From positions 1 through 62,513 of the forward strand of contig CALQFT020000003.1 of assembly GCA_943329925.2 (NCBI GenBank): a stretch of DNA of 62,513 nt. Direction: 5' to 3'. This document shows, in pieces, positions 35,762 to 54,369 of the stretch. Source of the DNA: Opitutus sp. GAS368 (lineage in GTDB: Bacteria > Verrucomicrobiota > Verrucomicrobiia > Chthoniobacterales > Chthoniobacteraceae). Every line of letters starts with the position of its first letter. Position 1 is the first letter of the stretch. The notes under the pieces were generated by a model. It was not told the DNA's origin. It did not search any database and was given only the letters and a program-made list of their open reading frames with translations. The translations under genes were made by a program, and so were the position numbers.

Positions 35762-36490
35762 ATGGGCTTTCGCATCGATCCTCACGTGCATTCATTTTAC
35801 TCTGGGGACGGAGTGAGCAGTCCTGAGGCGTTGATTCAGGCGGCTAAGCGCGTGGGTTTGGACGGGTTTGCGTTGACGGATCACAACACATCGGACGGAT
35901 GCAGGTATCTGCGCGACATTGGGTTGCTTCTGGAAGATGGAGAGCCCGTGGACGGCTTCCTGGTATTGCCGGGGATCGAAGTGTCGACCGCCGAGGGGCA
36001 CCTTTTGTGCCTCGGAGTTTGGCTTCCCAACGGTTTGAAGGGGGTGCCCGCCAAGGAGGTCATAGAGATGGTGCGGGCGCAAAATGGAGTTTCGATCCCG
36101 GCACATCCCTATGATCGCATGCGTGCGGGGATCCGAGAGGATGATTTGGATGAGTTGGAACTAGATTGTATAGAGGTTTTTAACGCAGCTACCGTGCTGC
36201 AGCGCCACAACGAAAGCGCTCTGGCGTACGCCCAGCGGCGAGGCCTCGCGATGACCGCGGGCAGCGATGCACATCACCACCTCTCCATTGGACGCTCGCA
36301 CACCACTTTTCCAGCGGAGCGCCTGTGCGTGAGGGCTATTCTGGACTCCATCACGAAGGGAACCGAACTGCACTGCCAGCCCTTCAGCGCTCTGGAAGGG
36401 TTTCGTAAGACGTTCTACAATTGGTTCAGGCTCAGGCGAAAACGGACTTATTTAGGCGCCGGGTCAGGGGGCGTCGCAGCGGGCGGCTGA
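35762..36490 (+). CDS. PHP domain metal-dependent phosphoesterase
   Basis: A 242-aa protein with the polymerase-and-histidinol-phosphatase fold: DPHVHSFYSGDG (His8, His10), LTDHNTSDG, LPGIEVSTAEGHLLCLG, PAHPYDR and AGSDAHHH give the trinuclear metal site. It resembles the TrpH/YciV group, some of which hydrolyse 3',5'-bisphosphonucleotides or RNA 5' ends. The start (MGFRIDPHVH) directly precedes the first motif. Its last 43 bp overlap the convergent dltB end. Confidence 0.88.
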   Translation: MGFRIDPHVHSFYSGDGVSSPEALIQAAKRVGLDGFALTDHNTSDGCRYLRDIGLLLEDGEPVDGFLVLPGIEVSTAEGHLLCLGVWLPNGLKGVPAKEVIEMVRAQNGVSIPAHPYDRMRAGIREDDLDELELDCIEVFNAATVLQRHNESALAYAQRRGLAMTAGSDAHHHLSIGRSHTTFPAERLCVRAILDSITKGTELHCQPFSALEGFRKTFYNWFRLRRKRTYLGAGSGGVAAGG

Positions 36491-38025
36491 TCCAAGGCGG
36501 CTTCCCGGGCCTTGCGCAGCTTTTCTTCCTCCCGCCGGATTTCCTCTTCATTACGTTCGCATTCAACTGTTTGAGGCGAGCTTTTGAGGGGTAGGTTGCT
36601 TTTCACATCCTTGACTTCGATGATGTGTGGGCGGCCGTCGCGGACCCACCAAGGGACCTCGAAGCGAAATCCGTGTTTGCCGTCTCCAAAGCCCCGTTCC
36701 TTCAAATCCTCGCGTTCAATATCCGCGGGGAGGCGCTGGATGAACTGGTCGTCGATGAACAGATCAACTTGCAGCACTTCTTGTTGCGCGGCTGGTTCCC
36801 AGACCATGCCGATGACTTCATGGGTGTCGGCTTTTTCCAAAAGCCGTTCCACGGCGATTGGCGGGGCCGGGGTGAGGCGTCCGGAGAAAAGGAGCAACCC
36901 GAAGGCGATGGAGTGGAAGGTGAGCAGCCGATTGGCGAATATTTGCAGTGCACTTTCGCCAAGAAATTTCCGCTGCTTGTTCCAGCGTGCAAACCAGTCG
37001 TAACCGCTCAGAAGCGCGGCGTGGTAAAGCCCGTAGAGCATATAGTGCAGGCTCAGTCCGTGCCAGACACCCATGATGCCGAAGGTCAAAAAGAGGCCGC
37101 AGTAGGACGCCGTGTGTTTGCCGCTGAACCATTTGCCCTTTGAAGCGGCCAACAGAAACCGCATGTAAACGTGGTCGCGAAACCAGAAGGAGAGCGAAAT
37201 GTGCCAGCGATTCCAGAAGTCACGGATGTTCTTGGACAGAAACGGGCGGTCGAAGTTTTCCGGAAGATGAACGCCGAAGAAGCGGGCCAACGCTACAGCG
37301 AAAGCGCTGTAACCGGCGAAGTCGAAGAAGAGGTAAAAGGTGTAGGCGTACATGTACATCCACAACGTTGTGAAGCCGCGCCCCTTACCCAGAGCTTCCA
37401 TCCAGTAGGTGTTGATGAGGGCCGCAATGACGAACTTGTACAAAAAACCGCGAGCCAGCCTTTTGGCCACGAAGTCGAGGTCATCGAGGAACTCCGCACG
37501 GGAGCGGGTTTTATTCCAATCCTTGATGAAGCGGCGGTAGCGATCTACAGGGCCGGAGGAAAGGGCCGGAACGAAGAGCACGTAGGCGACGTAATGCTGG
37601 AGGGAGAGGTCTTTGACAAGACCGTCTTGGATGGAAAAAAGGACGTCCAGCGCCCTGAATGTGACGTAGGAGATGCCCAGGAAACCAAAGGCAGTTTGGG
37701 GCAATAAAGTCGGGAGGAGTTTGGCCGCGGCAAGCGGTAGGAGCGAAAGGCCGAGGGTCGCGTAGAAAACCGAGCGGGAGCGGAACTGGAGCAACCAGTG
37801 GGCGAGGAGGGCTTGGAAGGCTGTATATAAGCCGATGATATAAAGTTCCCGCACTTCAAAGTCGGGGCGCAAATGGACCGGAGCGCTGGTTTGAAGTGCC
37901 AGGAGGATGCCCATGGCCACCAAGCTCGTGACGCGGTTGAGCCGGCCGAAGTACGCGAGCAATCCGAAGGGAAGCAGGATGTAAAGAAGCAGACCGAAAT
38001 ACTCGAAGTCAGAGAAGGGAACCAT
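36448..38025 (-). CDS. dltB: DltB-type MBOAT acyltransferase with C-terminal accessory domain
   Basis: A 525-aa multi-helix protein of the MBOAT family. The first 385 residues match DltB: FLGISYVTFRALDVLFSIQD, LSSGPVDRYRRF, the PFLSKNIRDFWNRWHISLSF block, and the catalytic-type His322 in GIMGVWHGLSLH. DltB is the membrane channel that takes D-alanine from DltC across the inner membrane. Unlike ordinary DltB (about 400 aa) it carries an extra module at about 403-485 with GFGDGKHGFRFEVP, then a charged helix and a proline-rich tail. Last gene of the dltD-C-X-A-B cluster, 22 bp after dltA. Its end overlaps the PHP gene. Confidence 0.9.
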   Translation of the reverse strand: MVPFSDFEYFGLLLYILLPFGLLAYFGRLNRVTSLVAMGILLALQTSAPVHLRPDFEVRELYIIGLYTAFQALLAHWLLQFRSRSVFYATLGLSLLPLAAAKLLPTLLPQTAFGFLGISYVTFRALDVLFSIQDGLVKDLSLQHYVAYVLFVPALSSGPVDRYRRFIKDWNKTRSRAEFLDDLDFVAKRLARGFLYKFVIAALINTYWMEALGKGRGFTTLWMYMYAYTFYLFFDFAGYSAFAVALARFFGVHLPENFDRPFLSKNIRDFWNRWHISLSFWFRDHVYMRFLLAASKGKWFSGKHTASYCGLFLTFGIMGVWHGLSLHYMLYGLYHAALLSGYDWFARWNKQRKFLGESALQIFANRLLTFHSIAFGLLLFSGRLTPAPPIAVERLLEKADTHEVIGMVWEPAAQQEVLQVDLFIDDQFIQRLPADIEREDLKERGFGDGKHGFRFEVPWWVRDGRPHIIEVKDVKSNLPLKSSPQTVECERNEEEIRREEEKLRKAREAALDQPPAATPPDPAPK

Positions 38026-38047
38026 GGGGGGCGAAAAAACCGACGAA

Positions 38048-39523
38048 TTAGGAGAGCATTGCGGCGAGCGCTCGGCGGTCTGCCTTGCCGTTTGCAGTCA
38101 TGGGGAAGGCGTCGAGGAAAATGAACTTGCGAGGGACCATATAAGTCGGAATGCGCTCGCCGAGGCGTGTTTTGAGGCGAGCGCTTTTTTCAAAGGCACT
38201 GCCGTCCATGGGGGTGGAAAGGACGACGAAGGCGGCAAGGGAATCGACTTTGCCGCCTTTTTCTACAGGAAGCACCACGGCGTCGGCGACCTCGGGGAGT
38301 TCGCGCAAGTTAGCCTCCATGTCACCCAATTCGATGCGGTAGCCGTGCAGCTTGATCTGTCCGTCCATGCGGCCCTCAAAGAAAATCAGTCCGTCTCGGC
38401 AGCGGCCCCAGTCCCCGGTGCGGTAAGCGGGTTGGCCTTCAAATTGGGTGAAGGCTTTCGCCGTTAACTCGGGCCGGTTGAGGTAGCCGGGGCTTACGTT
38501 CGGTCCTGCGATGAGCAGTTCGCCGCGCTCGGATTCGGCCACGGGAAGCCCGGCCTCGTCCACGGCAAGAACCCGGGTGCCGGGCATCTGGTAGCCGACG
38601 GGCAGCGGCGAGAATCGCGCAAGCAGGGAGGCGTCGACGCGCACGGAGGTGGTGGCGACCGTGGCCTCCGTGGGGCCGTACGTGTTCCAGACTTCGGCGT
38701 CTGTGAAGCGCTCTAGCAGTTGGGAGGCGGTTTCGGGGGCGAGGGTTTCGCCGCAAAAGAGAAAGCGCCGCATTGTGGGGAGCATTTCCTGCCGGAAGCT
38801 CTTTTCGATCAGGCACATCTGCGCAAAAGATGGGGTCGACACCCAGGTCGTCAGGCCGAATTGCGCCAATCTTTGATACAGCAGTTTGAGGTTGGCGAGC
38901 TCCTCCTTGGTGATGCAGGCCAGTGTGCCTCCAGTTAATAGGCTCCCGTATAAATCCATGACGGAGAGGTCGAAGGAGAACGGCGCCTGATTGAGAAACA
39001 CTTCCGCCAGAAGCTCGAACTTGTGTTCCGCCAGAAGCCAGTCCGTGAAGGCCGTCAGGTTACGCAGCGTAATCACCACCCCCTTGGGCTCTCCAGTGCT
39101 CCCCGAGGTGAAGAGCATGTAGAAAGGGTCGTCCAGTTGCACCCTGACTGGTGGGGCGGGAAGCGTGTCCGTGAGGTGCGTCAAAATTTCACTAACCTTT
39201 TCCGGAGTAAGTACAAGTGCGGCGCCAGAGCCCGCAACAATTTTTGCAATGCGCGGCTCGGGAATGGAGGTGTCCATTGGGACGTAGGCGCGGCCGCACT
39301 TTACGGCGGCAAGGAACGCAACGAGCATCTCGGGCTCCTTGTGGCCGTGGACTGCGATAGGGCCCGGACTGTGGGCTAGTTCGCGGTGCAGCCATGCGGC
39401 CAGGGCGTCTGATTGTTGGATTAGCCCGCTCCATGTCAGCGTATTGGAGCCGCTTTGCACCGCTGCGCGCTCCGGGCATAAGGTGCCCCAGCGGTCAATC
39501 CGGTCCAGAAAATGTTCACTCAT
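38048..39523 (-). CDS. dltA: D-alanine--carrier protein ligase DltA
   Basis: A 491-aa member of the AMP-forming adenylation superfamily. It has the P-loop MLFTSGSTGEPKGVV (about 137-150), FSFDLSVMDLYGSL, YGPTEATVATTSV, YRTGDWGRCRDGLIFFEGR, and the C-terminal catalytic Lys in PMTANGKADRRAL. The length is that of DltA, shorter than most NRPS adenylation domains, and the absence of fused carrier domains plus the neighbourhood (dltC, dltX, dltB, dltD) make DltA the best call. It activates D-alanine and loads it on DltC in the cytoplasm. An in-frame TTG five codons upstream is an alternative start. Confidence 0.9.
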   Translation of the reverse strand: MSEHFLDRIDRWGTLCPERAAVQSGSNTLTWSGLIQQSDALAAWLHRELAHSPGPIAVHGHKEPEMLVAFLAAVKCGRAYVPMDTSIPEPRIAKIVAGSGAALVLTPEKVSEILTHLTDTLPAPPVRVQLDDPFYMLFTSGSTGEPKGVVITLRNLTAFTDWLLAEHKFELLAEVFLNQAPFSFDLSVMDLYGSLLTGGTLACITKEELANLKLLYQRLAQFGLTTWVSTPSFAQMCLIEKSFRQEMLPTMRRFLFCGETLAPETASQLLERFTDAEVWNTYGPTEATVATTSVRVDASLLARFSPLPVGYQMPGTRVLAVDEAGLPVAESERGELLIAGPNVSPGYLNRPELTAKAFTQFEGQPAYRTGDWGRCRDGLIFFEGRMDGQIKLHGYRIELGDMEANLRELPEVADAVVLPVEKGGKVDSLAAFVVLSTPMDGSAFEKSARLKTRLGERIPTYMVPRKFIFLDAFPMTANGKADRRALAAMLS

Positions 39524-39666
39524 AGGGTGGTGGTTCAAGTTGAAGGCAACCGGGTAATTTTATGCGGATCCACGGGGAAGCCGCGCTTCAGTTCGGGAAG
39601 CCATTGACGAAACCCAATGTGACGTGAAGGTGCCCAGCGTTACCAGAGGAGAGCGACATCCCTAGC

Positions 39667-39813
39667 CTAAAACTCCTGGTAAACGAAGGGTGGGGTGGAA
39701 AAATCACCGCGTCCGTAAAGGAATACCAAGGTGAGAACCAAGGCCAGATAGTAGAGAAAAAGCGCCAAACGCTTGAGCTCTGGACGCCCCTCAAAAAAAG
39801 CATCGAAATTCAT
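39667..39813 (-). CDS. dltX: DltX, small D-alanylation-associated membrane protein
   Basis: A 48-residue product: MNFDAFFEGRPELKRLALFL, one membrane helix (about 16-33), then a short outside tail ending in PPFVYQEF. In Firmicutes DltX is about 45-50 aa, has a single helix and ends in a conserved F-[IV]-Y-x-E-F motif, which is reproduced here. DltX works with DltB and DltD in moving D-Ala from the carrier to the acceptor. It lies 13 bp after dltC and 143 bp before dltA on the same strand. The gene is easy to miss because of its size and because longer unrelated frames overlap it. Confidence 0.88.
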   Translation of the reverse strand: MNFDAFFEGRPELKRLALFLYYLALVLTLVFLYGRGDFSTPPFVYQEF

Positions 39814-39826
39814 CGAAACAAGCCAG

Positions 39827-40066
39827 TTAAGATGCCATGCGCCGCTCCAGGTCGGCGACTAGCAGGGCGGGCGTGGCCCATGCCTCGCGTTCGAACTCCG
39901 CGGGAGAGATGTCCACGTCGAATTCGCGTCCGAAGGCCACGATGAGTTCCACCGTCTTCATGGAGTCGAGAATTTGAAGATCGTACAATGCCAGATCCGG
40001 CTGGCTGAGTACTTCTTGGGTTTCAGCAACTTCTGCAAGCACCTGAAGTATTTTGTCCTTCATCAT
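39827..40066 (-). CDS. dltC: D-alanyl carrier protein DltC
   Basis: A 79-aa acyl-carrier-type protein starting MMKDKILQVLAEVAETQEVL. The phosphopantetheine-bearing Ser35 lies in LQILDSMKTVELI, close to the LLDSMGTVEL of DltC rather than the DSLD of fatty-acid carriers. It carries D-alanine as a thioester between DltA and the membrane proteins. It starts 13 bp after dltD. Two adjacent ATG codons (40066 and 40063) are possible starts. Confidence 0.9.
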   Translation of the reverse strand: MMKDKILQVLAEVAETQEVLSQPDLALYDLQILDSMKTVELIVAFGREFDVDISPAEFEREAWATPALLVADLERRMAS

Positions 40067-40079
40067 AAAACTATTCGGG

Positions 40080-41411
40080 TCAGGGTATTTCTTTAGCGAT
40101 CGGGCTTTTGCCAAGCTTGTCGTGGTAAAAGTCATCCAGCACTTTGTTATAATACCACCACCCTTTGGAACCGATATGATCATTTTGATCTACGAAAAAC
40201 ACCGGATCGCTTTCATGATCCGCAAAATAGACAAGGGGAACCCCATAGCGCCGAACCATCTCCTGCAACCGTTCGCCGTAGGCCAAGCGACCCGTCTCCG
40301 AGACTCCCTGGGCTTCCAGCACATCGGCATGCAAGGGCATGGACATCACTAAAGGCTTGGCGCCCGCCTCTTTGAGTAGGCGAAGAACCAGCTCAAAATC
40401 TCTCCACTCCTGAGCCTTGCGCATCTTAACGGCAAACTGCCTGTCCCAAGTCCCCCGCGCGCGCACCACTTTGATGGGGCGCTTTCGGGACTTTGCCGCC
40501 AGCACTTTGGACTGTTGTTCGGCCGTGCGAAAAAGGTCGTCCCACCTCAGCGCCTTGCCACGTTTTGGCCGGAACCGGCCGGCGCCGTCGTTAGCCGTCA
40601 TCCCGTTGAGTGCAAAACCGGCTTCGATGTGATCCTGTAGTCGCGCGACCATCCGGTCCAAGGCGGCGTAGGGGCGGATGAGCGTCAGCAGAAAACGGTT
40701 GCTCGGGGATCCTGCGGCCCAACGGCGTAGGGTGAATTCCAGAGTCCAATCGCCCTCCATCACCTTGGGGTACTTCAAGATCTCTTCGGAGACATCTCGC
40801 TTAAGCTCGGCGCTGAAGCGGTCGCTCCATAAAAACTCCTTAATCTGGAGCTTCGAGGAGTTGCCTTCAAAGTACTTGGCGTCGACTTCTTCACTTTGAA
40901 AAAAACTGGGCGAAAGGGAGAGAACCAACTTTTTTCCAGCCAATTGCTCGGCGGCGCCACCGAGTTTTTGGAGTACGGAAAGCGCAGTGGTTCCCGCCTT
41001 ACCGACAGGAAACATGGTGAACCCAGTGGGGGAGTCGGAGAAAAAGTCGACGCCCTTCATGGGAACGTCGGGAATGAGCTCCGAGCTGCCAAAGAAAACG
41101 AGGGTGTCGGGCCTTGAGAGCGCCTCCCGGATGAGGGCCACGCCGTGCAGCTTCGCGTCGCAAAACTCAGGTGCAGCAGTGTGCAGTCGTCTTTCTTGAA
41201 TGTCGCGAGCCCAGAAGTAACCTCCTGTAATAAAAGCGCCTGCGAGAAGGACGGCCGAGCAAAGAAAAATCAGGTGAGAGTGCCCGCCGGATAGTTTTGC
41301 GGGGGGTGCGGGGGGTGGCGCCCCGGGGGAGGTTGGCACTAAATCCGCAGCTCCTGCCTTCTTGGGGGCAGCAGGAGACGCATCCAATGTACCTATGGGT
41401 CCGGAGATCAT
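40080..41411 (-). CDS. dltD: D-alanine transfer protein DltD
   Basis: A 443-aa protein with an unusual proline/alanine-rich cytoplasmic N-terminus (about 8-40), one membrane anchor (about 45-67) and an extracytoplasmic SGNH-like domain. The nucleophile motif is FFGSSEL (Ser109/Ser110). The C-terminal catalytic region reads VDQNDHIGSKGWWYYN (Asp408, Asp411, His412), matching the D..HxGxKGW block of Firmicute DltD, although the Asp spacing differs slightly. DltD hands D-Ala to the final acceptor outside the membrane. First gene of the cluster, divergent from uvrA. The frame opens 74 codons earlier, but that part is not coding-like. Confidence 0.9.
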   Translation of the reverse strand: MISGPIGTLDASPAAPKKAGAADLVPTSPGAPPPAPPAKLSGGHSHLIFLCSAVLLAGAFITGGYFWARDIQERRLHTAAPEFCDAKLHGVALIREALSRPDTLVFFGSSELIPDVPMKGVDFFSDSPTGFTMFPVGKAGTTALSVLQKLGGAAEQLAGKKLVLSLSPSFFQSEEVDAKYFEGNSSKLQIKEFLWSDRFSAELKRDVSEEILKYPKVMEGDWTLEFTLRRWAAGSPSNRFLLTLIRPYAALDRMVARLQDHIEAGFALNGMTANDGAGRFRPKRGKALRWDDLFRTAEQQSKVLAAKSRKRPIKVVRARGTWDRQFAVKMRKAQEWRDFELVLRLLKEAGAKPLVMSMPLHADVLEAQGVSETGRLAYGERLQEMVRRYGVPLVYFADHESDPVFFVDQNDHIGSKGWWYYNKVLDDFYHDKLGKSPIAKEIP

Positions 41412-41631
41412 GTTCTGGGAAGGCAGGCGGGGGTAGGTGATCTTAACACACGCTGTGGGAATCGCAAGGGATTGAGGTTGCAACAGCTTTGACGAAAAGG
41501 GAAGGTCGTCTGGTTGGTGGAACCAAGCGGTTGCCGCTTTTGCACCTCCGTGCCGACGGAAAATGATCCCGTGCCTCGGCTCGCTCCAAGCTTGCGAACT
41601 TGCCCGCTCTCGCCGAGGTTTCGCCCTGCCC

Positions 41632-44600
41632 ATGGCACACTCCTACCACCCTCCCTGCGGCCCGGGTTTCATTGAGATTCGCGGGGCTCGCCAAAACAAT
41701 TTGAAGGGCTTCGATGTTTCGCTACCGCTTGGCAAACTAATCGTCGTCTCCGGCCCAAGCGGCAGCGGGAAATCCAGCTTCGCTTTCGACACTCTCTACG
41801 CGGAAGGACAGCGCCGCTACGTGGAGACCTTCAGCCCGTACACCCGTCAGTTTTTCGATCGGATGGACAAGCCGGCTGTCGACGAAATCCGCGGCATCCC
41901 CCCGGCAATCGCCATCCAACAAGTCAACGCCGTCAAATCCACCCGCTCCACCGTTGGGACCATCACCGACCTTAACGACTATCTCAAACTGCTGCTCCCC
42001 CGCGTGGTCGAGGCGTTCTGTCCGGGGTGCAATCAAGCGGTCCGCCCCGCCACCGCTGTCTCTATTGTGGATGGACTGCTCCACGTTTCCGAGCCGCTCC
42101 TCATCACCTTCCCGTTGGCTGTGCCACCGGACGCCGTCGCCAGCGAATTTTTAGCCTTCCTTAAGCAACAAGGCTACCAACGAATTTGGGCAAAGGGTGT
42201 GGTGGTGCGCACTGATGAGCCGGTCTCAGAGCTTCCCTCCGAGGTGTTTGTCATCCAAGACCGACTCACCTCTTCCGTCGAAAACCGGCCACGTCTCTCG
42301 GAGGCCGTGGAAATCGCGCTGCGTTTTGGAAAGGGAAAAATGGCGGCCATCGCCGGGGACCAGATTCGTCCCTTCGCCACGGGCTGGCATTGCGCTGCTT
42401 GTGCTCGCTCGCTTCCCGAACCGACGGCGGGCCGCTTTTCGTTCAACCATCCGCAGGGAGCCTGTGCGGCTTGCAGAGGCTTTGGGCGGGTCATTACGCT
42501 GGATCTGCTTCGCGCTGTGCCCAACCCAGAACTGAGCATCAATGACGGCGTGGTTAAACCTTTTCAAACTGAAGGGGGCGCCGATTGCCAGCGGGATTTA
42601 CTCCGCCAGGCAGCCAAACGCGGAATCAATTGCAGCACCGCGTTTACCAAACTCTCCGAGCCTGACCAGCAGTGGGTATTATACGGTGAGGATCCTTTGC
42701 GCTCAGGCGACTACTTGTGGAAGAAGGACTTGTGGTATGGTGTGCGCGGTTTTTTTGAGTGGATGGAGGCCAAGAGTTACAAAATGCACGTCCGCGTGCT
42801 GTTGAGTCGTTATCGCACATATACGGTTTGTCCGGACTGTCACGGCAACCGATTCGCGCCGGACACGATGAACTTCCGCTGGGACGGCCTAACCGCATCA
42901 GACTTGATGCGGCTGCCGGTGAGCGAGTTGCACACATTCATTCGACAGCGCCGGGAGCTTCTCTCCAAAGACCCAACGGCCGACCTCCTCTCGGGCGAGG
43001 TGCAATCCAGATTGCAATATCTTCTGGACGTTGGACTTGGATATCTGACTTTGGAGCGCCCCACACGCTCTCTCAGCGGCGGCGAAACTGCGCGGGTTAA
43101 TCTGACCACCTGTTTGGGGACGGCCTTGGTGAACACGCTTTTTGTGTTGGATGAACCCAGCATCGGGTTGCATCCGCGCGATACGGGGCGGCTTTTAAGC
43201 GTGCTTAAACGACTCCGGGACAAAGGAAATACGTTGGTCGTGGTGGAGCACGAGGAGGCGATGTTACGCGCGGCGGATCATTTCATAGAGATCGGGCCAG
43301 GGCGCGGCGAAGCGGGCGGCCATCTGGTGTACGCGGGACCGTCGGAGGCGCTCCTTTCGGGTGCCGCTAGGACGCTGACGGGGGATTATCTCACTGGGAA
43401 AAAATTCGTTCCTGTGCGCACCAAGCGCCGCAAGCCGAAGGGCTGGGTGAAAGTCGAAGGGGCAAGCGCCCACAATTTGAAAGCGGTGGACGCCTCCTTT
43501 CCGCTGGGCGTACTTTGTTGTGTTACAGGTGTTTCAGGATCCGGAAAAAGCACGCTGGTGCACCGCGTGTTGTACGGTCAGCTCGCGAAGGCGCAGGGCC
43601 TGGACTTGGACGAAGCGCCGGGAGAGTGCCGGGCAATCCACGGGGCGCAGAAGGCTGGACCGGTAGTGCTCGTCGACCAGACGCCCCTATCCAAAACCCC
43701 GCGTTCCACTCCCGCGCTTTACCTCGGAATTTTCGATGAAATCCGAGCGAGGTTCGCAAAAACGCCGGAGGCGCAAGCGGCTGGATTTACTGCGGGCAGC
43801 TTCTCATTTAATTCTGGAAAGGGTCGTTGCGAACGCTGTGGGGGAAGCGGCTATGAGAAGATCGAGATGCAGTTTTTGAGCGACGTTTATGTGCGATGCC
43901 CGGAATGCGAGGGGCGGCGTTACCAGCCGCACGTGCGGCAGATTTTATTGGAGGGAAAGTCCATCGATGCAGTGTTGGAACTTACGGTCACAGAAGCTAT
44001 TGAATTTCTAATAAAGGCGGATATGCCGGGCGCTATCAAGCCGCTTGAGACACTCCAAGAACTGGGGCTCGGATACCTGCGGCTTGGGCAGCCTCTCAAC
44101 GGCCTCTCCGGTGGCGAAGCCCAGCGCGTCAAGCTCGCCGAGCGGCTCATTCAACGCTCAAAAACGGGCGCATTTCTCATCCTGGACGAGCCCACCACGG
44201 GCCTTCATTTGGACGACATTGTCTTGTTGGTCGCCGCACTCAACAAGCTTGTCGATGATGGCCACACCGTTCTTGTTATTGAGCACAACCCGGACGTGAT
44301 TCGCGGTGCCGATCACATTATTGACCTCGGGCCCGAGGCCGGTGCCGACGGCGGCTGCATTTTGGTGGCCGGCACTCCCGAGCAGGTTGCCGCGTGCGCA
44401 GAGTCTCACACTGGCCGCTTCCTGCAGCTCGACGCCGGTGTGCAAGATGCCTTGCGCGTTGCGGAAGAGCTAAATTTTCATAGTGTTGCGCAGGTGCCAG
44501 ACGGCATTCATATCGTCGGCGCCAGGCAGCACAATCTGAAAAATCTGACTCTCACCATTCCGAGAAACTCCATCGCCGTCATCACCGGATTGAGCGGTTC

Positions 44601-47139
44601 GGGGAAGTCTTCGCTGGCGTTTGACCTGCTTTTCGCAGAGGGCCAGCGCCGCTTTTTAGACAGCATGTCGCCCTATGCGCGGCAGTTTGCCACCCAACTG
44701 GAGCGCCCGGACGTGGACCTGATCACGGGCCTGCCACCCTCCGTCGCCATCGAGCAGCGCCTCACCCGAGGCGGAGGCAAGTCCACCGTCGCGACGGTCA
44801 CCGAGGTTTATCATTTCCTTCGTCTGCTCTTCGCAAAACTCGGCGTCCAGCATTGTCCGGATTGCGAACTGCCGGTGGAGCGCCAGACGGTAAGTTCCGC
44901 GGTCACCAAGGCAGAAACCCTCGCGAAAAAGGGCGTGGTTTCAATTCTAGCGCCTTTGATCCGTGCCCGAAAAGGGTATCACAACGAAATTGCAACATGG
45001 GCGATACGTCGTGGTTATGAGGATTTATTGGTGGATGAAAAGTGGGTCAAGGCGAGTGCTTTTCCAAAGTTGGCCCGGTTCAAGGAACACACCATTGAGG
45101 TACTCATTGGCAAGAGCGGTCCGGACGGATTGACCCGCAAAGTTATTGAGACTGCGTTGGAGGTGGGTAAGGGGACGGCCGTTCTGCTGGATGCCAAACT
45201 GAAGCGCCACGTGCTAAGCACGCAGTACAGTTGTACGGGTTGCGGCACATCTTTTGAAGAGCCCGATCCGCGCCAGTTTTCTTTCAACAGTCCGCACGGT
45301 TGGTGCGAGGTCTGCCACGGGTTTGGTGAGGAATGGGTGCGCAAGGACAACCCGCGGCTGGATTCTGCGCTGGAAATCGAACTGGACCACGAGCGCCAAC
45401 ATGAGGCACTGGAGGACGAGGAGCGCGCGGTTTGCTCTACGTGTGATGGTGCTCGTATTCGGCGCGAGTCGAGATTCGTTTTCGTCGGATTGAGCACGTT
45501 GCCAGCGATTGTTGCGCTTCCGGCGGCGGGCGTTTTGAAATGGTTGGAGAGTTTGGGTTTTTCAGGAAACCAGGCGAGGATTGCGGAAGACATTCTCCCG
45601 GAAATTACTCAACGGCTTCAGTTTTTGAGCGAGGTTGGACTGGATTACCTTACCTTGAACCGTTCGGCGAAAACCTTATCCGGTGGCGAGTCTCAACGCA
45701 TCCGGCTCGCGGCGCAGTTGGGCTCCAACCTGCGCGGCGTCCTTTACGTTCTGGACGAACCAACCATCGGATTGCATCCCCGCGACAACGCCGCTCTTCT
45801 GGATACGCTCACTGCGCTTAAGGCCAAGGGTAATTCGCTCGTCATTGTCGAGCATGACGAGGATACGCTGCTTCGCGCCGATCATGTGATTGATCTCGGG
45901 CCCGGCGCAGGCCGACACGGCGGCCAAATCATTGCGCAGGGAACGCTCGCAGAACTACGTGCCGCACCACTTTCTGCCACAGGGGAATCCCTTCGCAATC
46001 CTCTACAACATCCCATGCTGGGCCAACGCCGATCTCTTGCGAAAGGCGAGTTGACGGGGTGGTTGGAGATACTAGGGGCCCATTTGAATAACGTGAAGAA
46101 CATGGATGTGCGCATACCGCTAGGAAGGCTCACGGTGCTCACGGGGATTTCTGGTTCAGGCAAAAGCACGTTCATGCGCGGGATTCTCAAGCCCGTTCTG
46201 GAGGCTGCGATTGCGGGTCGAAAACCTCGCCACTCCGGTGCGAGTGTTATCGGAAAATTGTGTCGAAGTTTCGACGGCGCCGATGGCGTCGAAGCGGTTT
46301 ACGAAGTGGACCAGTCGCCTATCGGCAAGACGTCGCGGTCCACGCCGGCCACGTATCTGAGCATCTTTGACGCGATTCGTTCGCTCTTTGCAGGCACTCC
46401 CTTGGCTCGAATCCGCGGTTATTCCGGCGGACGTTTTTCATTCAACACCGAAGGCGGACGATGTGAGACTTGCCTCGGGCAGGGCACATTGAAAATAGAG
46501 ATGAACTTCCTGCCCACCGCGCACATCCAGTGTCCGGATTGCGGCGGGCGTCGTTACAATCCAACGACTTTGGAGGTCCCTTATGGAGGCAAGACCATCG
46601 CCGATGTGCTGGCTTTGCCAATGGAAGATGCGGCGGAGTTTTTCGCATCGCACCCTTCTATCGCGAGGCCTCTCAAATTATTGTGCGAAACCGGATTGGG
46701 TTACCTGACATTGGGGCAGTCCAGTCAGACTTTGAGTGGTGGAGAGGCGCAGCGACTCAAGCTTGTGAGCGAATTGGTACGCGGCGTGAGTCGAAGTGAA
46801 AACGCGCGCTTGCGCAGTTCAAAGCCCGCTCCTTCGATGGTGTACTTGTTGGAGGAACCCACCATTGGATTGCACCAAGCCGACGTGCGCCAGCTGCTGG
46901 GGGTGCTGCATCGGTTGGTGGATGCGGGACATACCGTGGTGGTTATTGAGCACCACACCTCGGTCATCGCGGAGGCGGATTTCCTTTTGGAGATCGGCCC
47001 CGAAGCGGGTGCAGCAGGCGGTGAACTCATCGCCTGTGGCACTCCGGAAGAAGTGGTGAAGGTGAAAGGAAGCCGGATTGCGCCGTTTTTAAAACCGCTT
47101 TTGAAACGGAAGACGCGACCTGCAAAGAGCAAAGGCTAA
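41632..47139 (+). CDS. uvrA: double-length excinuclease ABC subunit UvrA
   Basis: An 1835-aa chain formed by two complete UvrA units (about 1-945 and 955-1835). Each has two ATPase modules. Walker A: GPSGSGKSS (41), GVSGSGKST (633), GLSGSGKSS (986), GISGSGKST (1505). Signatures LSGGE at 481, 825, 1349 and 1701. Walker B: LDEPSIGLH, LDEPTTGLH, LDEPTIGLH, and in the fourth module LEEPTIGLH, with Glu for Asp. Each half also has the C-terminal zinc finger (CERC..CPEC near 735-763 and CETC..CPDC near 1610-1637). UvrA recognises DNA damage and loads UvrB. Normal UvrA is a homodimer of about 940 aa, so this chain could act as a covalent dimer. Chlamydiae have a similar double protein. Confidence 0.95.
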   Translation: MAHSYHPPCGPGFIEIRGARQNNLKGFDVSLPLGKLIVVSGPSGSGKSSFAFDTLYAEGQRRYVETFSPYTRQFFDRMDKPAVDEIRGIPPAIAIQQVNAVKSTRSTVGTITDLNDYLKLLLPRVVEAFCPGCNQAVRPATAVSIVDGLLHVSEPLLITFPLAVPPDAVASEFLAFLKQQGYQRIWAKGVVVRTDEPVSELPSEVFVIQDRLTSSVENRPRLSEAVEIALRFGKGKMAAIAGDQIRPFATGWHCAACARSLPEPTAGRFSFNHPQGACAACRGFGRVITLDLLRAVPNPELSINDGVVKPFQTEGGADCQRDLLRQAAKRGINCSTAFTKLSEPDQQWVLYGEDPLRSGDYLWKKDLWYGVRGFFEWMEAKSYKMHVRVLLSRYRTYTVCPDCHGNRFAPDTMNFRWDGLTASDLMRLPVSELHTFIRQRRELLSKDPTADLLSGEVQSRLQYLLDVGLGYLTLERPTRSLSGGETARVNLTTCLGTALVNTLFVLDEPSIGLHPRDTGRLLSVLKRLRDKGNTLVVVEHEEAMLRAADHFIEIGPGRGEAGGHLVYAGPSEALLSGAARTLTGDYLTGKKFVPVRTKRRKPKGWVKVEGASAHNLKAVDASFPLGVLCCVTGVSGSGKSTLVHRVLYGQLAKAQGLDLDEAPGECRAIHGAQKAGPVVLVDQTPLSKTPRSTPALYLGIFDEIRARFAKTPEAQAAGFTAGSFSFNSGKGRCERCGGSGYEKIEMQFLSDVYVRCPECEGRRYQPHVRQILLEGKSIDAVLELTVTEAIEFLIKADMPGAIKPLETLQELGLGYLRLGQPLNGLSGGEAQRVKLAERLIQRSKTGAFLILDEPTTGLHLDDIVLLVAALNKLVDDGHTVLVIEHNPDVIRGADHIIDLGPEAGADGGCILVAGTPEQVAACAESHTGRFLQLDAGVQDALRVAEELNFHSVAQVPDGIHIVGARQHNLKNLTLTIPRNSIAVITGLSGSGKSSLAFDLLFAEGQRRFLDSMSPYARQFATQLERPDVDLITGLPPSVAIEQRLTRGGGKSTVATVTEVYHFLRLLFAKLGVQHCPDCELPVERQTVSSAVTKAETLAKKGVVSILAPLIRARKGYHNEIATWAIRRGYEDLLVDEKWVKASAFPKLARFKEHTIEVLIGKSGPDGLTRKVIETALEVGKGTAVLLDAKLKRHVLSTQYSCTGCGTSFEEPDPRQFSFNSPHGWCEVCHGFGEEWVRKDNPRLDSALEIELDHERQHEALEDEERAVCSTCDGARIRRESRFVFVGLSTLPAIVALPAAGVLKWLESLGFSGNQARIAEDILPEITQRLQFLSEVGLDYLTLNRSAKTLSGGESQRIRLAAQLGSNLRGVLYVLDEPTIGLHPRDNAALLDTLTALKAKGNSLVIVEHDEDTLLRADHVIDLGPGAGRHGGQIIAQGTLAELRAAPLSATGESLRNPLQHPMLGQRRSLAKGELTGWLEILGAHLNNVKNMDVRIPLGRLTVLTGISGSGKSTFMRGILKPVLEAAIAGRKPRHSGASVIGKLCRSFDGADGVEAVYEVDQSPIGKTSRSTPATYLSIFDAIRSLFAGTPLARIRGYSGGRFSFNTEGGRCETCLGQGTLKIEMNFLPTAHIQCPDCGGRRYNPTTLEVPYGGKTIADVLALPMEDAAEFFASHPSIARPLKLLCETGLGYLTLGQSSQTLSGGEAQRLKLVSELVRGVSRSENARLRSSKPAPSMVYLLEEPTIGLHQADVRQLLGVLHRLVDAGHTVVVIEHHTSVIAEADFLLEIGPEAGAAGGELIACGTPEEVVKVKGSRIAPFLKPLLKRKTRPAKSKG

Positions 47140-53147: not shown

Positions 53148-54293
53148 TCACAGTCTTCTTAAGAACAAGCTCGAAAAATCTCGGTTGGCGGAGCGCATCC
53201 AAAATAAACAAAAACCGATACAGAAGAATAAAGCGTGCGGCCCCCAAGCTGCGACTTCGGGAGAAAGACGTCCAGCTTTGCCAAGAGCGAGGAAGAGACT
53301 GCGCATGACCAGCAAAAGAAAGAACAGGAAAATGGCAATGCCAGCGCCCTGAACCGTGCCGCGCCTTGAAAATACAATTCCAAGCGGAGCAGCGATTAAA
53401 ATCACGAGAAGGCAAGTCCATGGCAGCGCCCAACGGTCTTGAAGGACCGTGCGGAATGGGGCTAATTGCACTTCGGAAAAATCGTAGTTGTTCGTCAAAT
53501 ACTCGTTTAATTCAGGGGTGGTGAGTTGCTGCGGATCGAGTCGCGAGGAGGCGATGCGCCATGGCGTTTCGAGCCACCCTTCCAATACGCGTTGTCCTTG
53601 CGCTTCAAAATTGTCGATCTTGAGCACCTCGCCCTCCGCGTTGAGATCCACGATAACACCGCGCTGAAGTGTCCAGTGATGCGTGGCGGGGTCGTGGATG
53701 GCTTTGGCTGCGTACCATTTTCGGGTAATGTTCCCCTGCTCGTCCTGTTGTAAAATCTGCACCCCCTCAAGCACGGAACCGCTTGGACGCAGTCGGCGCA
53801 CAAACCAAGTTCGATTGCTGAGCCGATCCCGAAACAGATGCGCGTCGACTTGATCACGCGGGGCATCATTGGAACGGGACTGGCGTAGACCATCAATGAC
53901 GGCGCGCTTGAAAGCCTCAGCGCGTGGAGCAAGTTCGTAGTTGAGCGCGAGGCAAAGTCCGGTCATGGCCAACCCGGCTGCAAACAGTGGCAAGAGAACA
54001 CGGCCCAAACTGCGGCCGGAGGCTAGCATGGAAATGATCTCGTTGTTGCGCGACATTCGACTGCAACAGAAAAGTAGCGCCAATAAAATGGCGACCGGCA
54101 GCGCAAGTAACAATATCTGAGGGAGTTGCATTAAATAAAAACGGCCAACGACAGCCGGCGAAGAACCAGTCCGCAAAAAGTCGGACCCGTGGTCGCTCAA
54201 ATCAAAAATGAGCCAGATGCTCAAAAAAGCGCCTAGCGCGAGCAGCAGCGGCTCGAGAAAATTGCGAAATAGATAACGGTCCAGCAGAGACAT
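53148..54293 (-). CDS. LptF/LptG family LPS export permease
   Basis: A 381-aa YjgP/YjgQ-family protein. It has helices at about 15-38, 60-85 and 100-120, a periplasmic beta-jellyroll (about 135-290) and three C-terminal helices (the last ending LFFCIGFCLFWM). The motif LDRYLFRNFLEPLLLALGAF and SRNNEIISMLASGRSLGRVL are typical. It is one of the two membrane subunits of the ABC exporter that lifts LPS from the inner membrane. Which of LptF or LptG cannot be told. It shows that the cell is a diderm. Confidence 0.9.
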   Translation of the reverse strand: MSLLDRYLFRNFLEPLLLALGAFLSIWLIFDLSDHGSDFLRTGSSPAVVGRFYLMQLPQILLLALPVAILLALLFCCSRMSRNNEIISMLASGRSLGRVLLPLFAAGLAMTGLCLALNYELAPRAEAFKRAVIDGLRQSRSNDAPRDQVDAHLFRDRLSNRTWFVRRLRPSGSVLEGVQILQQDEQGNITRKWYAAKAIHDPATHHWTLQRGVIVDLNAEGEVLKIDNFEAQGQRVLEGWLETPWRIASSRLDPQQLTTPELNEYLTNNYDFSEVQLAPFRTVLQDRWALPWTCLLVILIAAPLGIVFSRRGTVQGAGIAIFLFFLLLVMRSLFLALGKAGRLSPEVAAWGPHALFFCIGFCLFWMRSANRDFSSLFLRRL

Positions 54294-54369
54294 TGCGGTG
54301 GGGTGCTTGTGCGCCAAAGGAATTAACTCCGAGACACACTGCGGGGCAAACAAGGTTTCTCGGGCACTC

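Follow-up and report, generated by a model that had tools for sequence, protein, structure and literature searches.

A complete dlt locus with an extended DltB in a diderm verrucomicrobium

Genes and motifs of the locus

The window analysed here, a stretch of 62,513 nucleotides from a freshwater verrucomicrobium (Chthoniobacterales/Spartobacteria), carries a complete five-gene set of the Dlt D-alanylation system. The genes, in the order dltD-dltC-dltX-dltA-dltB, occupy positions 36448-41411 of the minus strand, and all frames are intact. An earlier note on this DNA had placed five dlt components on one strand over this interval, which is borne out by the coordinates and the family scores. Dlt is commonly presented as a teichoic-acid system of Gram-positive bacteria and as a drug target; to our knowledge, the diderm cases described are few, and in these the acceptor is not settled.

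In coding order, dltD (40080-41411) encodes an N-terminal transmembrane anchor followed by an SGNH acyltransferase domain (TIGR04092, 157.6 bits against a cut-off of 150; PF04914, E-value 7.6e-47), and dltC (39827-40063) a 78-residue carrier protein with the phosphopantetheine serine in an LDSM motif (TIGR01688, 66.7 against 52.35; NF003464, 76 against 68). The product of dltX (39667-39813) is a 48-residue microprotein with a single transmembrane segment and a C-terminal acyl-shuttle hexapeptide, FVYQEF. The D-alanine adenylating enzyme is encoded by dltA (38048-39523), and the MBOAT D-alanyl transferase, residues 1-384 of a protein with a C-terminal extension, by dltB (36448-38025; TIGR04091, 397.8 against 375, covering residues 3-384). 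The four intergenic gaps measure 16, 13, 143 and 22 bases with the dltA start taken as the ATG at 39523; an in-frame TTG lies upstream at 39538, and the DltA residue numbers given below are counted from it.

In the profile search of the window proteins, DltB, DltC and DltD exceeded the NCBIfam equivalog cut-offs, and DltA exceeded the cut-off of its DltA subfamily model (NF003417, 546 against 476). The family E-values are too small for chance. The key motifs named in the earlier note were all found in the translations: the DltA P-loop as TSGSTGEPKG, the DltC serine as LDSM, the DltB histidine motif as GVWHG and the DltD serine as FGSSE. A 71-residue open reading frame at 39588-39803 was rejected as a gene, since it overlaps dltX in the wrong frame, and a scan of the locus for promoters and terminators gave counts at the level of shuffled sequence.

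Predicted D-alanine activation and the DltB tail

DltA was compared with the Bacillus cereus enzyme (BcDltA, structure 3dhv), to which it is 48% identical across 482 aligned residues. The pocket residues Asp197, Leu198, Met201, Cys269, Thr297, Val301, Lys403 and Lys492 of BcDltA correspond to D190, L191, M194, C262, T290, V294, K396 and K485 in the window protein, all unchanged. Cys269 is the enantiomer-determining residue, which selects against L-alanine (PMC4176424, PMC8972799). The identical pocket supports a specificity for D-alanine.

The 48 codons of dltX translate as MNFDAFFEGRPELKRLALFLYYLALVLTLVFLYGRGDFSTPPFVYQEF. Its last six residues match the pattern FXYXXF of the acyl-shuttle hexapeptide, in which the DltX tyrosine is the residue that carries D-alanine (PMC12148441), and in the alignment an F[VI]Y..F ending was retained in nearly all DltX proteins of relatives. 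The genome also contains one alanine racemase gene, as well as two phosphopantetheinyl transferases of the AcpS type that exceed the cut-off, so that the supply of D-alanine and the activation of DltC would be provided for.

In an alignment that included solved DltB proteins (8jem/6bug), both histidine motifs of DltB, RWH and GVWHG, were kept. The canonical part stops at residue 384 and is followed by 141 further residues, an extension that the earlier note had not described; the first 105 or so of them form a conserved module (36538-36873, minus strand) with alignment positions G22, R54, G63 and G65 invariant. Among the DltB loci examined, this module was confined to Chthoniobacterales, where it is present on most DltB proteins. 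It belongs to no Pfam family and gave no convincing sequence match in the PDB. An AlphaFold2 model predicts a beta-sandwich (predicted local distance difference test score 84.5, predicted template modelling score 0.71), and the neighbours in the fold search were Fn3/Ig-like modules of glycan-active enzymes and receptors. The best VIA-align Z was 8.1 and most rows lay around 7 (e.g., the Fn3-like module of CbhA, 3pe9), within the background of the tool for common folds, and the Foldseek E-value was no better than 2e-3.

The tail domain was found in 42 of 210 genomes of the order, nearly always on DltB. Three other proteins carry it; judged by eye, the one in L183 is methyltransferase-like, the one in L184 is large and of polysaccharide type, and the one in L186 probably has a signal peptide. 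It had been expected to be common in the genome of the window, which was rejected, since a single copy is present there. On the DltB tree, its distribution needs three changes, and these are read as one gain and two losses.

Regarding its location, the N-terminal helix of solved DltB is extracellular and the protein has ten transmembrane helices (PMC11035591), so that the C terminus is extracytoplasmic. The window protein is consistent with this topology, its N-terminal segment containing no K or R and the loop preceding the last helix being basic (ARWNKQRK). Taken together, the solved topology and the charge pattern suggest that the tail should face the periplasm, beside the DltX tyrosine and DltD. 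There, it would most likely help to capture the acceptor or to hold DltD in place.

Distribution and organization in the order

In a sample of 388 genomes of the phylum, DltD scored above its cut-off only in the genome of the window, with one sub-threshold match elsewhere. Within Chthoniobacterales, Dlt was present in 55 of 213 genomes, and 10 of 11 other genomes of the same genus had DltD, the exception being a 62% complete assembly. In these samples, the system is confined to one order of Verrucomicrobiota. The closest DltB match (92%) came from a metagenome-assembled genome (MAG) of an uncultured Spartobacteria member, followed by MAGs of Chthoniobacteraceae. Two MAG records titled Akkermansia muciniphila (L006, L009) were placed inside Chthoniobacteraceae in the DltA and DltB trees and are probably mislabelled.

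The order D-C-X-A-B, the usual one in Chthoniobacterales loci, many of them independently assembled, was seen in Anaerolineae as well. C-D-X-A-B is found in Desulfosporosinus and in several Chloroflexota, and the order of Bacilli, X-A-B-C-D, differs from that in the window, as had been noted earlier. Both the DltA and the DltB tree place Chthoniobacterales, as one main group, in a mostly diderm clade with Chloroflexota, Planctomycetota, Eisenbacteria and Gemmatimonadota; Desulfosporosinus lies next to that clade and Bacilli stand apart. Support for the deeper joins is modest, and no direction of transfer follows from the trees. Two genomes from other families of the order (L193, L194), both C-D-X-A-B and both on long branches, are placed apart from this main group, a position that suggests they acquired the system separately.

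Some operons of the order are split. In two loci (L006 in genome G399 and L008 in G401), no dltA lies between dltX and dltB; a system free of DltA was considered and rejected, since a DltA above cut-off is encoded on another contig in both genomes (in G399, this copy extends as far as the end of its contig). In three further genomes (G413, G420, G421), dltB and dltD are on different contigs. That the scattered parts are kept speaks for continued function, and the intact relocated dltA genes of G399 and G401 point to genes still under selection. In G399, some 2 kb separate the relocated dltA from an alanine racemase gene (L205, contig C28; 770-2371 and 3806-5107; TIGR00492, 297 against 168), with a 200-residue protein and an open reading frame on the opposite strand in between; given the latter, the proximity lends only weak support. 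In G401, it is divergent to genes for SIS-domain and HAD proteins weakly resembling gmhA and gmhB (L204, contig C2; 4165-7177); these were not counted as a link to heptose and lipopolysaccharide (LPS), since the gmhA/gmhB scores are under the cut-offs.

Two adjacent dltD genes are frequent in soil Chthoniobacterales (L011, L012, L017; G546, G549, G556, G562), and such tandem paralogues may correspond to two acceptors. Solitary dltD genes with no other dlt genes nearby were found in three cases (L190, L191, L192); the genomes belong to two further genera of the order, one from the same family (g200) and one from another (g218).

Divergent from dltD in the window, a single open reading frame of 1858 residues (41563-47139, plus strand) appears by eye, from its translation, to be a tandem fusion of two UvrA-type proteins, with ATPase start motifs recurring about half-way.

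Probable envelope acceptor and comparison with known systems

The assembly of the window (3.80 Mb in 287 contigs, 93.5% complete) encodes LpxC and LptD, and an LptF/LptG protein is found inside the window itself at 53148-54353. These genes indicate an LPS-type outer membrane, in agreement with the diderm host of the Planctomycetota-Verrucomicrobiota-Chlamydiota group and the LptF/LptG-type permease proposed in the earlier note. No TagF-type gene (Glyphos_transf) was found in this genome. Of the 42 sulfatase-family matches, the 30 best were scanned for hydropathy together with six regions of weaker matches, and none begins with several helices as LtaS does. Since LPS genes are present and no TagF-type or LtaS-like polymerase was found, a non-teichoic acceptor is the parsimonious reading, and the suggestion that D-alanine is placed on something other than teichoic acid gains support from these genomic data.

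We therefore consider it probable that this is a complete Dlt system that D-alanylates a non-teichoic envelope polymer in a diderm with no recognisable teichoic polymerase. This conclusion draws on the curated-family matches, the D-alanine pocket, the conserved operon, the shuttle motif, the LPS genes and the lack of teichoic polymerase matches; the gene set, the motifs, the pocket, the diderm genes, the distribution and the tail domain are read directly from sequence. By analogy with homologues, DltA would form D-alanyl adenylate and load D-alanine onto the phosphopantetheine of DltC; DltB would take it from DltC at the cytoplasmic side and pass it to the tyrosine in the FVYQEF tail of DltX, from which it would move to the DltD serine. 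DltD would then esterify a hydroxyl of a polymer facing the periplasm other than classical teichoic acid, such as an LPS sugar, a capsule or an exopolysaccharide, with the lineage-specific DltB tail probably capturing this acceptor or holding DltD, and the D-alanyl esters would lower the negative surface charge.

Several observations weigh against this interpretation. DltA falls 19 bits short of the older equivalog model TIGR01734 (541 against 559.85). With the genome 93.5% complete, the lack of teichoic genes is a strong result, though not an absolute one. No genes for glycans or envelope polymers lie beside the operon, and in the conserved neighbourhoods of Chthoniobacterales dlt loci only housekeeping and signalling genes were recognised by eye (PHP domain, sucA/sucB, isocitrate dehydrogenase, kinase/regulator pairs), with no clue to the acceptor. 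The two losses of the tail suggest that it is dispensable for the core reaction. Finally, the catalytic motif of DltD is altered. In an alignment of 96 DltD proteins, serine and histidine were retained almost throughout, and the window protein keeps both the GSSE serine and the histidine. In Bacillota DltD, the SGNH aspartate lies three residues ahead of the histidine (DxxH), the spacing also seen in PatB with Asp302/His305 (PMC12148441). Block V in the clade of the window instead reads DQNDH, with Asp at -4 and -1 and Gln at -3. Asp at -4 was also found in most Chloroflexota, in Eisenbacteria and in two odd or unplaced Bacillota MAGs (L024, L031), and most soil Chthoniobacterales have Asp at neither -3 nor -4 (e.g., LIRHQSH, LYLHKSH). 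Since the window protein still exceeds the DltD equivalog cut-off, its shifted aspartate marks a divergent DltD branch and not another family; the DxxH spacing is a property of Bacillota DltD that lies outside the curated family definition.

An unrecognised anionic phospho-polymer resembling teichoic acid, made by non-homologous enzymes and D-alanylated as in Gram-positives, would also be compatible with DltD and DltB passing equivalog models built on teichoic-acid systems, and with Chloroflexota and Desulfosporosinus being among the nearest clades. With LPS export genes present and neither Glyphos_transf nor an LtaS-like polytopic sulfatase found at 93.5% completeness, such a polymer is improbable. 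A different product is conceivable as well, if DltA and DltC fed a peptide-like metabolite or lipid aminoacylation and DltB, DltX and DltD acted on a small molecule or lipid: the genome has further adenylation domains, enzymes of this type are often recruited to natural products, and no glycan genes adjoin the operon. This is very unlikely, as DltB, DltX and DltD are kept with DltA and DltC across the order, the D-alanine pocket is unchanged and no biosynthetic genes flank the operon among the annotated neighbours. The patchy occurrence (55 of 213 genomes in the order and one sub-threshold match in the rest of the phylum sample) could suggest a recent lateral acquisition that is non-functional in this host. 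Open frames and motifs kept in many divergent genomes, the single main group inside the order in both trees and the retention of dltA and dltB even when relocated make this the least credible of the alternatives.

Returning to D-alanylation of a non-teichoic polymer, it is possible, as a tentative proposal, that the DltB tail serves as a module for acceptor recognition, by which the D-alanylation machinery of teichoic acids is redirected to a polymer of the LPS or the capsule in Verrucomicrobiota, and that the tandem DltD proteins of soil relatives serve different acceptors. If so, the modified polymer would be a D-alanylated component of the outer envelope so far undescribed in this phylum. 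Freshwater and soil Verrucomicrobiota that make LPS and show no recognisable teichoic polymerase, including Udaeobacter-type genomes, thus have a complete D-alanine-type Dlt system with DltX. From this, one would predict a D-alanyl ester, so far undescribed, on the surface of these bacteria, of relevance to charge and, in soil, to antimicrobial tolerance. The extra domain of DltB, together with the genes that are split or duplicated, offers natural variants for studying acceptor choice by the relay. No paper treating the dlt operon together with Verrucomicrobia was found in the open-access literature searched, most subscription journals lying outside it.

Compared with dltXABCD of Bacilli (S. 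aureus, B. subtilis, lactobacilli), the window encodes the same five proteins with the same adenylation pocket, carrier serine, MBOAT histidine, FXYXXF motif and GSSE serine, but differs in its D-C-X-A-B order, the diderm host with no recognised teichoic polymerases, the extra DltB domain predicted to be periplasmic, the displaced DltD aspartate and the separate DltA/DltB branch. The nearest relatives in the DltA and DltB trees are the proteins of Desulfosporosinus, Chloroflexota, Planctomycetota, Eisenbacteria and Gemmatimonadota; Desulfosporosinus and several of the others share the layout of C and D ahead of X-A-B, but the DltB proteins of these clades end directly after the last helix, whereas that of the window continues into the tail. 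The relay of MBOAT, acyl-tyrosine and SGNH protein is shared with peptidoglycan O-acetylation by PatA/PatB, in which the acyl group passes from the MBOAT to the tyrosine of a hexapeptide and on to the SGNH enzyme (PMC12148441), except that PatA/PatB uses acetyl-CoA, has no adenylating enzyme or carrier and has the shuttle motif fused to the MBOAT.

Diderm hosts are also found for the dra locus of Bordetella pertussis, which adds D-alanine to an outer-membrane component (PMC4448142, PMC9858536), for DltB of Dickeya (PMC10931765) and for a plasmid of Klebsiella electrica (L207, NZ_CP041250.1, 59053-63105). The Klebsiella cluster, flanked by insertion sequences, comprises DltD, a 40-residue microprotein with FEYQKF, and MBOAT, AMP-binding and carrier genes; it differs from the window in its D-X-B-A-C order, an MBOAT about 36% identical over the matched part and with no tail domain, and a DltA lacking the CGE pocket motif. 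An equally similar MBOAT match was found on an Enterobacter cloacae plasmid. Dlt in diderms is thus not new in itself; the present locus is set apart by the phylum in which it occurs, by how closely its proteins match the Gram-positive families, by its layout, by the tail on DltB and by the motif of DltD.

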